Part shown: positions 8,074 to 10,875 of the stretch, one piece after another
Layout: each line of letters starts with the position of its first letter
Numbering within the stretch: the stretch's first letter is position 1
DNA from: Pseudodesulfovibrio aespoeensis Aspo-2
GTDB lineage: Bacteria; Desulfobacterota; Desulfovibrionia; Desulfovibrionales; Desulfovibrionaceae
Direction of reading: 5' to 3'
Length of the DNA stretch: 64,000 bases
NCBI RefSeq assembly: GCF_000176915.2
Contig: NC_014844.1
Span: 3,100,001 to 3,164,000, forward strand
Made by a program: the position numbers and the translations under genes
The notes under the pieces: generated by a model
What the model saw: only the letters and a program-made list of their open reading frames with translations
Database searches by the model: none
What the model was told of the DNA's origin: nothing

Positions 8074-8595
8074 ATGAGGCATGCCGACAACCCCGTGATC
8101 GCCGCGATGCTTGAGCGGCGCAGCATCCGCAAGTTCACCGGCAAAGCAGTGGCCCGCGAGGACATCCTGACCATCCTCGAAGCCGGCCGCTGGGCGCCCA
8201 GCGGCCTGAACAACCAGCCCTGGCGGTTCCTGGTGATCTCCCGCGACGACCCCCGGCACGCCAAGCTTGCTGAGTGTACCAAATACGCCCACATCGTCCG
8301 GGCCTCGGCCGCATGCATCGCCGTGACCCTCGACAAGGGCGACATGTACAGCGAGATGAAGGACCACCAGGGAGCCGGGGCGTGCATCCAGAACATGCTC
8401 CTGGCCATCCATGCCCTGGGCCTTGGCGCGGTCTGGATCGGCCAGATCGTCAACGACCAGTCCGCTTCGCTCACGGCCCTGGGGCTGGACGAAACCGCCC
8501 ACGAGCTTCAGGCCGTCATCGCCCTGGGCCACCCCGACCAGCAGGGCGGCTCGACCCGGAAACCGCTGGCCGAACTGCTCCTGGAGGAGATATAA
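8074..8595 (+). CDS. nitroreductase family protein
   Basis: A 173-aa FMN-dependent nitroreductase-fold protein. The N-terminus 'RRSIRKFTGKAV' is the classic FMN phosphate-binding start, followed by 'GRWAPSGLNNQPWRF' and later 'HALGLGAVWIG'. The ATG at 8074 is preceded by AAGGAG. It is the first gene of a tight five-gene operon: its TAA is directly followed by the ATG of the metallo-hydrolase gene. Members reduce nitroaromatics, quinones or flavins with NAD(P)H; the substrate here is unknown. Confidence 0.88.
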   Translation: MRHADNPVIAAMLERRSIRKFTGKAVAREDILTILEAGRWAPSGLNNQPWRFLVISRDDPRHAKLAECTKYAHIVRASAACIAVTLDKGDMYSEMKDHQGAGACIQNMLLAIHALGLGAVWIGQIVNDQSASLTALGLDETAHELQAVIALGHPDQQGGSTRKPLAELLLEEI

Positions 8596-9216
8596 ATGGA
8601 AATCAAGAGCTTTGCCCTTGGCCCCCTGCAAACCAACTGCTTTGTGCTGGCAGGCGACGCCCAGGCCGTGGCCGTGGACCCCGGCGGCGACCCGGCCCCG
8701 GTGCTGGCCTATCTCAAGGGCAAGGGGCTGACCCTGACCCACATCCTGAACACCCACCTGCACTTTGACCACACCTACGGCAACAAGGCCCTGGCCGAGG
8801 CCACGGGCGCGCCCATCCTGCACGGGGTCGACGACGCCTACCTGCTCGAAACCGAGCTGGGCCTGGGCCGGATGTTCGGCCTGCCCCCGGTGGACCCATA
8901 CGAGGCGCAGACCGTCGAGCCGGGCCAGGCCGTGTTCGCCGGGTTCGACTGCACCGTGCTGGCCACGCCGGGCCACTCCAAAGGCAGCCTGACCTTCTAT
9001 TTCCCCGAGGCCAGGGCCGCCTTTGTGGGAGACCTCATCTTCTTCCGCTCCATCGGCAGGACCGACTTCGAGGGCGGCGACCTGGACGAACTCAAGCGAT
9101 CCGTGACCTCGCGCATCTTCACCCTGCCGCCCGAGACCCTGCTCCTGTCGGGCCACGGCCCGGAGACCACGGTGGGCGATGAAATGAACCACAACCCCTT
9201 TTTCGCAGGATTCTAG
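8596..9216 (+). CDS. metallo-beta-lactamase fold hydrolase (glyoxalase II-like)
   Basis: A 206-aa cytoplasmic protein of the MBL superfamily. Metal ligands are visible in 'NTHLHFDHTYG' (HxHxDH), 'ATPGHSKGS' and 'LLSGHGPETTV'. Length and motif spacing match the glyoxalase II/YcbL-like hydrolases that cleave thioesters. Its Shine-Dalgarno GGAGGAG lies inside the end of the nitroreductase gene, and the next gene starts 2 nt after its stop, so it is firmly inside the operon. Confidence 0.88.
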   Translation: MEIKSFALGPLQTNCFVLAGDAQAVAVDPGGDPAPVLAYLKGKGLTLTHILNTHLHFDHTYGNKALAEATGAPILHGVDDAYLLETELGLGRMFGLPPVDPYEAQTVEPGQAVFAGFDCTVLATPGHSKGSLTFYFPEARAAFVGDLIFFRSIGRTDFEGGDLDELKRSVTSRIFTLPPETLLLSGHGPETTVGDEMNHNPFFAGF

Positions 9217-9217
9217 C

Positions 9218-9481
9218 ATGAGCCAGACAGTCAGCATCGACATACGCGACAAGTGTTGAGGGGTGGGACTGGAGGTAGGTTGGTACCTCCGTTTCGCCCG
9301 AACGGACCGGATCGAGGCCCTGGTCTGCCCCAAGGGGGTGCCCCAGGTGCGTCACGAGATGCACAGCCATCCGGGCTGGTCCCTTGAGGTCGAGGAACGC
9401 GGCGATCATGCCCTCACGCGCATGACCCGCCTCAAGCCGGTATACGCCGGAGAGGACGCACCCGCGAGCGGGAAGGAATGA
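9218..9481 (+). CDS. probable selenocysteine-containing TusA/SirA-like protein (in-frame TGA at 9257-9259 read as Sec)
   Basis: An 87-codon frame starting at the ATG at 9218 (AGGA at 9207-9210) and interrupted at codon 14 by TGA. After the TGA the same frame stays open to 9481 with normal GC-rich coding usage. Reading TGA as selenocysteine gives the N-terminus 'MSQTVSIDIRDKCUGVG'. By eye, 'DIRDKCU' aligns with the TusA motif DLRGLxC, placing Sec exactly at the catalytic Cys; the rest has the TusA-like strand-helix-strand pattern. A SECIS-like hairpin follows (9261-9299). The stop TGA overlaps the next gene's ATG. TusA-type proteins relay sulfur as persulfide; a Sec version would be more reactive. 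Without Sec insertion only 13 residues would be made. An alternative is a GTG start at 9263, but that leaves the upstream start, its ribosome site and the hairpin unexplained. Confidence 0.8.
9261..9299 (+). promoter_or_regulatory. SECIS-like hairpin downstream of the in-frame TGA
   Basis: The mRNA directly after the TGA (9257-9259) folds into one long hairpin. The lower stem is 9 bp (9261-9269 with 9291-9299, including three G-U pairs). A single unpaired U follows at 9270. The upper stem is 7 bp (GGAGGTA 9271-9277 with TACCTCC 9284-9290) and the loop is GGTTGG (9278-9283). Bacterial SECIS elements bound by SelB have a bulged U in the stem and G/U at the start of the apical loop, within a few tens of nt of the UGA; here the loop begins 18 nt after it. 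The pairing is read directly from the sequence; function is inferred. Confidence 0.78.
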
Positions 9482-10086
9482 TGACAAGCAGAGCCGTGAT
9501 CTACGCATGCAGCCACCGCCGGGGCGGCAACTCGGACCGCGCCGCCCAGTGGCTGGCCGCCGGGGTGCGCGAGGCGGGCGGGCAGGCCGACATCCTGTAT
9601 GTGCGCGACCACGAGGTGCGCCCCTGTCTGGCCTGCGGCTATTGCGACGAGCCGGGCGGGCGGCGCGGGCGCGACCTGTGCGTGCTCGGCCCTGGCGACG
9701 CGGCCTGGGATCTCTTCGAACCATTGCTCACAGCCAGGGCCGTGCTCTTTGCCTCGCCCATCTACTTCTACCATCTGCCCTCCATGTTCAAGACCTGGAT
9801 CGATCGGAGCCAGCAGTTCTGGGCCGCCAGGGCCGAAGGAGCCCCGTGGCTCACGGAGCTCCCCCGGCGCACGGCCAGGGCCGTGTTCCTGGCCGGACGG
9901 CCCAGGGGCGACAAGCTCTTCGAGGGCGCGACTGTGACGCTCAAATATTTCCTGCACAATTTCGCCATGCCCCTTGACGAGCCGCTCGCCTTTCGCGGCG
10001 TGGACGAGCCGGACGACCTGACGGGCCGGACCGAGCGCGAGGCCATCACCGGGCTGGGCCGACACGCCTGGGAAGAGGCCTCCTAG
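9478..10086 (+). CDS. NAD(P)H-dependent FMN reductase/flavodoxin-like iron-sulfur flavoprotein family
   Basis: A 202-aa flavodoxin-fold protein. The N-terminal strand and loop 'AVIYACSHRRGGNSDRAAQW' bind FMN phosphate, 'RPCLACGYCDEPGG' is the Cys-containing loop typical of NADPH-dependent FMN reductases and iron-sulfur flavoproteins, and 'VLFASPIYFYHLPSMFKTWIDR' is the family signature. The ATG overlaps the TGA of the Sec-TusA-like gene (ATGA), implying translational coupling; a second ATG lies at 9481. It likely transfers electrons to a partner encoded in the same operon. Confidence 0.85.
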   Translation: MMTSRAVIYACSHRRGGNSDRAAQWLAAGVREAGGQADILYVRDHEVRPCLACGYCDEPGGRRGRDLCVLGPGDAAWDLFEPLLTARAVLFASPIYFYHLPSMFKTWIDRSQQFWAARAEGAPWLTELPRRTARAVFLAGRPRGDKLFEGATVTLKYFLHNFAMPLDEPLAFRGVDEPDDLTGRTEREAITGLGRHAWEEAS

Positions 10087-10092
10087 ACCGCA

Positions 10093-10875
10093 GTGCGCGA
10101 CCTCCTGACCCGCATCGCCCGATTGACCGGACTGGCCGGTGCGCGCTGCCCTGTCTGCTCGGCCCTGACCAGCGGCGGCGACACTCCACTCTGCCCGGCC
10201 TGCGCCCTGGCGTTGCGCCCGCGCACCCGCGGTTGCTGCGCCCTGTGCGGCGACATGTTCGGCGATGGGAACGAGCCTGGCGGCAGGAAGGAACAAGGCG
10301 TCGAGAACCAGCCCGACCACGCCCAACCGGACACCGTCTGCGGCGAGTGCCGCCTCGACCCGCCGCCGTGGGACCGGCTCCACTTCCACGGCGCGTACTC
10401 CGGCCCGCTGCGCGACCTGATCATCGACTACAAGTTCCACGGCGGCCTGCACCGCACCCGGCTGCTGGTATCCCTGGCCGTCGAGGCCCAGGGACGCGGC
10501 GCAGCAGGCCCTCCCGACCTCATCCTGCCCGTGCCGCTGCATCCCCGGCGGCTGCTGTGGCGCGGCTACAACCAGAGCACCGAGCTGGCGCGCGGCCTTG
10601 GCCGCGCCCTGCAAAGGCCCGTGCCGTCCAATGCCCTGGTGCGCACGCGCAACACCGTGCCCCAACTCTCCCTGGACATGCACCAGCGGCGCGAGAACAT
10701 CCGGGACGCCTTTGCCGCAAACCCCGCCCAGGTGGCCGGACGCTCCATCCTGCTGGTGGACGACGTGTACACCACCGGCGCGACCCTGACCGAATGCGCC
10801 CGGACCCTGCGCCGGGCCGGAGCCGCCGGGCTCAGCGTCCTGGTCCTGGCCCGCGCCCGGCGCGAGCCTGACTGA
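10093..10875 (+). CDS. ComF family protein (amidophosphoribosyltransferase-like)
   Basis: A 260-aa protein starting at GTG 10093. An N-terminal zinc ribbon is built from CPVC (about residues 17-20), CPAC and CALC motifs. The C-terminal phosphoribosyltransferase domain has 'LPVPLHPRRLLWRGYNQS' and the PRPP loop 'LLVDDVYTTGATLTECA'. ComF proteins act in DNA uptake or nucleotide salvage in some bacteria; the role outside competent organisms is unclear. It is the last gene of the nitroreductase operon, 6 nt after the FMN reductase stop. Confidence 0.88.
   Translation: MRDLLTRIARLTGLAGARCPVCSALTSGGDTPLCPACALALRPRTRGCCALCGDMFGDGNEPGGRKEQGVENQPDHAQPDTVCGECRLDPPPWDRLHFHGAYSGPLRDLIIDYKFHGGLHRTRLLVSLAVEAQGRGAAGPPDLILPVPLHPRRLLWRGYNQSTELARGLGRALQRPVPSNALVRTRNTVPQLSLDMHQRRENIRDAFAANPAQVAGRSILLVDDVYTTGATLTECARTLRRAGAAGLSVLVLARARREPD

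Follow-up and report, generated by a model that had tools for sequence, protein, structure and literature searches.

The window, by which we mean the whole 64,000-nucleotide stretch of Pseudodesulfovibrio aespoeensis Aspo-2 DNA analyzed here, contains a short reading frame that is interrupted by a TGA and lies within a conserved gene cluster, between genes for a metallo-beta-lactamase-fold hydrolase and a flavodoxin-fold FMN reductase (Table 1). The initial annotation had described a frame that starts at ATG 9218 with its own ribosome site, is stopped at codon 14 by a TGA directly preceded by a Cys codon, stays open thereafter and is coupled to the next gene by an ATGA; every one of these elements was reproduced, the ATGA overlap lying at 9478-9481. 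The shortened frame from GTG 9263, which it expected annotation pipelines to call if they did not miss the gene altogether, is likewise present in the window. Read with the TGA as selenocysteine (Sec), the product has the sequence MSQTVSIDIRDKCUGVGLEVGWYLRFARTDRIEALVCPKGVPQVRHEMHSHPGWSLEVEERGDHALTRMTRLKPVYAGEDAPASGKE.

Table 1. Features of the predicted selenoprotein locus (positions are those of the window).
Feature	Position	Strand	Remarks
Nitroreductase-family flavoprotein	8074..8595	+	First gene of the conserved cluster; PF00881; conserved context
Metallo-beta-lactamase-fold hydrolase, GloB-like	8596..9216	+	HxHxDH; immediately upstream of the selenoprotein gene; PF00753, E 3.5e-30
Shine-Dalgarno-like AGGA	9206..9209	+	About 8 nt 5' of ATG 9218; read from the sequence
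Predicted selenoprotein gene	9218..9481	+	87 codons; TGA = Sec at codon 14; stop TGA 9479-9481
In-frame TGA, predicted Sec codon	9257..9259	+	Cys codon TGT 9254-9256 directly before
SECIS-type hairpin	9261..9299	+	Apical stem GGAGGTA/TACCTCC (9271-9277 with 9284-9290); loop GGTTGG 9278-9283
Short ORF from GTG 9263	9263..9481	+	Could be reported by conventional gene calling; judged not the real gene
Flavodoxin-fold FMN reductase	9478..10086	+	CxxCxxC..C; PF03358; overlaps the selenoprotein stop by ATGA
ComF-like phosphoribosyltransferase-type gene	10093..10875	+	End of the conserved order; conserved context; presumed ComF-like

Searching 60 relatives with the selenoprotein gave matches in 46, every one with an in-frame TGA, the closest named relative being Pseudodesulfovibrio pelocollis. 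With a family profile built from 23 members, homologues were detected in 142 of the order's 247 genomes, representing 32 of 51 genera; when the profile was run on 395 genomes sampled across the phylum, only genomes of the same family matched, and a plasmid protein search with the selenoprotein gave no match. TGA occupied the exact site in 143 of 153 distinct profile matches and a Cys codon stood just before the site in 148, the matches without TGA being one site-orthologue and a small group of paralogues. The UGA is thus conserved at one position, as in bacterial selenoproteins, and we rejected an ordinary stop; the same TGA in independent genomes excludes a sequencing error at 9257-9259. Among 142 homologues, the recoded site was always TGA and never TAA or TAG, while the terminal stops of the same genes varied (TGA 82, TAA 32, TAG 28). 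Under random stop usage such invariance has P ~1e-34 with kinship ignored; as the family sequences are related, such probabilities are indicative only. The residues 5' of the TGA (D-x-R-x-x-C) were nearly invariant, with Asp at -6 in 142, Arg at -4 in 134 and Cys at -1 in 141 of the 142 homologues, and 61% of the substitutions upstream of the TGA fell at third codon positions. These two observations indicate that the parts before and after the TGA belong to one protein, which continues after the Sec for a median of 65 coding residues.

The SECIS-like hairpin that had been proposed 3' of the TGA proved stable. The hairpin containing GGAGGTA-GGTTGG-TACCTCC (9271-9290) had a folding energy of -26.5 kcal/mol (z = -3.4), which was matched by 2 of 200 shuffled sequences and by none of 2000 synonymous recodings. 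A stem-loop thus directly follows the UGA, with a seven-pair apical stem and G in its apical loop, GGUUGG, located 18 nt after the UGA. RNAalifold returned no structure on the family alignment block, and the observed pairs were therefore compared with synonymous recoding instead. Across the 142 sequences, 6.35 of the 7 apical pairs were kept, compared with 4.59 +/- 0.08 (sd) after recoding, and the mean hairpin energy was -17.7 versus -12.3. Where the V/I codon base was A, it was paired with T of the Tyr codon in 40 of 40 cases, against a control T fraction of only 0.44 in comparable codons of the same genes; where it was G, it was paired with C or T in 95 of 102. The stem is kept far beyond synonymous recoding, with compensatory changes, and most members with few pairs in the standard register fold an offset stem at about the same position.

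The source genome, a single contig of 3.63 Mb, carries selA, selB, selD, and the tRNA-Sec gene selC, all over the cut-off, so that the machinery on which the initial annotation made its reading depend is complete; selD itself contains one TGA. Across the order, selA accompanied the TGA gene in 136 of 140 genomes and was present in 80 of the 107 others (Fisher p 1e-7), and the four TGA-gene genomes without it are incomplete or highly fragmented assemblies. Most of the 80 selA-bearing genomes outside the TGA group lack the gene, which is therefore not a universal need. Conservation, hairpin and selA association strongly support the selenoprotein reading, and positions 9218-9481 are almost certainly a selenoprotein gene with a predicted Sec at codon 14.

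Two explanations that dispense with Sec were weighed against this assignment. The TGA could end a 13-residue leader whose hairpin regulates translation, the protein itself starting at GTG 9263; in the window this GTG does follow closely on the TGA, and a start codon of some kind occurs within five codons of the TGA in 95 of 142 homologues. The other 47 have no ATG, GTG or TTG there, so a start at this position is not conserved, and a Shine-Dalgarno-like motif precedes the upstream in-frame start in 121 of 142 homologues. The conserved residues and coding-type substitution before the TGA, the lack of TAA or TAG at the site and the association with selA all argue against a leader, and the shortened protein would lose strand 1 and the reactive site of the AlphaFold2 model described below, making such an internal start very improbable. 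Readthrough of the TGA as Trp or Cys would agree with a frame that is open whatever residue is used, but TGA is the normal end of 82 of these 142 genes, the SECIS-type hairpin and the selA association are specific for Sec, and the site-orthologue that has lost the TGA sits in a genome where no selA match was found. We regard the probability of such decoding as negligible.

That site-orthologue (L137/L245, genome G483; DLRQACPCTLTRD) occupies the same place in the operon and reads DLRQACPC, with CPC shifted by one relative to the Sec position. Its hairpin is weak (-10.9 versus -22 to -24 in TGA-bearing relatives), the assembly is 85% complete, and the copy likely represents a natural loss of Sec. 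A second, divergent paralogue (DLREVCCGLVPAI...) also lacks the TGA and has Cys at the Sec position, in the motif DLREVCCGLVP; its copies (L140, L142, L143/L078, L145, L146, also L138, L139, L144) occur outside the operon in g14 genomes and a few others, most of which also hold the Sec gene. Two further copies look degraded, one with an extra in-frame TAA (L048, genome G023) and one in which several conserved residues are gone (L054, G020); they possibly reflect ongoing loss in single lineages of the genus. In G030 (L264), of the same genus, selA is present and the selenoprotein gene absent, and the nearest hydrolase match is 40% identical and does not adjoin the flavoprotein. One copy (L163, G533) keeps the TGA and has Gly in place of the preceding Cys (NIGUG).

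Pfam, NCBIfam, and PDB sequence searches with the selenoprotein gave no family match. An AlphaFold2 model based on an alignment of 60 family members (pLDDT 89.8) has the strand-helix-strand-helix-strand-strand order of the TusA topology, placing the Sec after strand 1 and just before helix 1, while a single-sequence prediction made without the alignment reached pLDDT 60 and gave a fold without confidence. Foldseek related the model to the SirA-like 3hz7 (TM 0.58/0.67, probability 0.99) and to the YeeD domain of 8k1r (TM 0.63, probability 1.00), both at E ~0.05; no match reached E 0.001, and other small folds ranked equally with the SirA-like ones. The beta-alpha-beta-alpha-beta-beta two-layer fold is seen in the model, and the Foldseek matches support it but are not significant by E-value. 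At the profile level, hhalign of the family against TusA gave a probability of 2-5%, and a forced global alignment, which matches the TusA Cys to the Sec, had a probability of only 2%. PF01206 matched none of 23 members, nor did the NCBIfam TusA model match; CUG stands where TusA/SirA proteins have CPxP after D-x-R-G, and the CC paralogues, tried as a sequence bridge to TusA, had no PF01206 match. Two ordinary TusA domains are encoded elsewhere in the same genome. As the predicted fold matches while the profile probability and E-values are weak, we describe the selenoprotein as TusA-like in predicted fold and layout and not as a member of the TusA family. Judging from the model, a TusA-type fold is very probable. 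The TusA-like label of the initial annotation therefore stands for the predicted fold and the position of the reactive residue and falls for membership in the sequence family, and its alignment by eye of the TGA with the catalytic Cys agrees with the modeled position and with the forced alignment of 2% probability.

Comparison with TusA/SirA (PF01206, including YeeD/TsuB) shows the same beta-alpha-beta-alpha-beta-beta order in the predicted fold and a D-x-R that precedes a reactive residue where helix 1 begins; the present family differs in having Sec for Cys, CUG for CPxP, a vicinal Cys, and a different operon. An earlier proposal of Sec-containing TusA/SirA proteins in deltaproteobacteria, assumed in the initial annotation, found no support in the literature examined, and none of the 119 prokaryotic selenoprotein families listed in the inventory of May 2026 is TusA/SirA-like (PMC13188914). 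The literature describes a SirA-like/YedF protein that contains Cys and is linked to SelD (PMC2432076, PMC5322559); this protein also has a SirA-type domain tied to selenium use, but it carries Cys (CPxP) and a second, DsrE-like domain and is not described as a selenoprotein. In the same organism group, predicted Desulfovibrio selenoproteins include SelD, FdhA, DsrE-like, GlpC, HesB-like, FrhA, and DsbA-like proteins, and the present gene is absent from the published D. vulgaris and D. desulfuricans lists (PMC1794560). CU-motif families in the 2026 inventory are HgcA, SaoL, SaoC, MbdU, KCU-star (a DUF466 protein), and a CopZ-like protein (PMC13188914). KCU-star shares the Lys-Cys-Sec motif, and its NCBIfam model (NF033934) does not match the selenoprotein. 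The Sec of KCU-star is C-terminal, unlike that of the present family with its 65 or so coding residues after the Sec. A vicinal Cys-Sec-Gly, comparable by analogy only, is found in thioredoxin reductase, whose C-terminal Gly-Cys-Sec-Gly cycles as a selenenylsulfide and is reduced by flavin; that protein is unrelated, and in the present family the pair lies close to the N-terminus and the flavin would belong to a separate protein.

The gene neighborhood is widely preserved. Nitroreductase, hydrolase, flavoprotein, and ComF genes occur together at 84 of 151 loci, and the flavoprotein is found with ComF, the hydrolase or both at 125. At the 121 loci with both hydrolase and flavoprotein, all are on the same strand as the selenoprotein, with the hydrolase directly upstream at 111 and the flavoprotein directly downstream at 120. 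The flavoprotein residues C50, C53, C56, and C68 are present in 100% of 126 aligned sequences, in a CxxCxxC..C pattern that we take to resemble that of iron-sulfur flavoproteins. In genera g16, g261, and g273, the selenoprotein gene lies elsewhere and hydrolase and flavoprotein adjoin without it, and the pair persists in many genomes that lack the gene. The link to these neighbors is therefore strong and not obligatory, and we infer a partnership from it. The relocated g16 genes L074 and L182 directly follow a gene for a small ELGDKTQ-type membrane protein, presumably UPF0016/GDT1-like, which is a possible alternative partner of the selenoprotein in that genus.

On these comparative data, the gene product is very probably a small cytosolic selenoprotein with a TusA-type fold, its Sec inserted at a hairpin-directed UGA. 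Its most likely function is that of a redox or chalcogen (sulfur or selenium) carrier that would act through the vicinal Cys-Sec pair. SelB with Sec-tRNA would read the UGA of codon 14 as Sec under the direction of the downstream hairpin. The Sec, at the N-terminus of helix 1, would take the place of the persulfide-bearing Cys of TusA, and the vicinal pair could close as a selenenylsulfide. Reaction of the Sec with a sulfane, persulfide, peroxide or thioester-type substrate might then be followed by re-reduction of the Cys-Sec bond or Se-S adduct by the neighboring CxxCxxC flavoprotein, while the metallo-beta-lactamase-fold hydrolase might process a related thiol adduct. This combination of Sec carrier, re-reducing flavoprotein and hydrolase is offered tentatively; it is plausible, and we lean slightly against its being right as a whole.

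Other functions would leave the selenoprotein assignment intact. Sec in anaerobes often serves oxidant removal, and the two flavin enzymes of the cluster would suit a small peroxidase or repair reductase that draws its electrons from the flavoprotein and involves no persulfide chemistry. However, no peroxidase-type family match and no thioredoxin fold were found, and persulfide carriers have the fold that is predicted here, which makes this role unlikely. Equally, the Cys-Sec pair could bind a toxic metal such as Hg or As and take no part in redox or sulfur transfer, as the vicinal CU families SaoL, SaoC, MbdU, and HgcA are metal-linked (PMC13188914). A metal-binding role nonetheless appears doubtful, given neighbors that are flavin reductases and a hydrolase and a conserved order that lacks transporters, regulators and metal-resistance genes.

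We return to the preferred reading of a Cys-Sec redox or chalcogen carrier. The selenoprotein family is common to much of the order and is missing from the current catalogues examined. Bacterial selenoproteins have mostly been found via Cys homologues. The authors of deep-Sep, a recent deep-learning method, noted that a family lacking Cys homologues may escape detection, and they reported no new family from Salidesulfovibrio onnuriiensis or Desulfomicrobium orale (PMC12013277). The present family fits that blind spot. The two test genomes appear to be G023 and G471 of our set, both of which hold the gene, the G023 copy being apparently decayed. A near-obligate selenoprotein family of one order, with a TusA fold, a vicinal Cys-Sec pair and almost no Cys orthologue, may have been kept for its selenium chemistry and may, together with the neighboring flavoprotein and hydrolase, constitute an undescribed sulfur/selenium-handling module of sulfate reducers, a proposal that we find nearly as easy to accept as to doubt. 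Its range takes in much of the Desulfovibrionales, an order that includes well-studied sulfate reducers. The family's NIGUG copy is a natural test of the need for the vicinal Cys, and the family as a whole gives a compact setting in which to study the advantage of Sec over Cys in a TusA-type scaffold.
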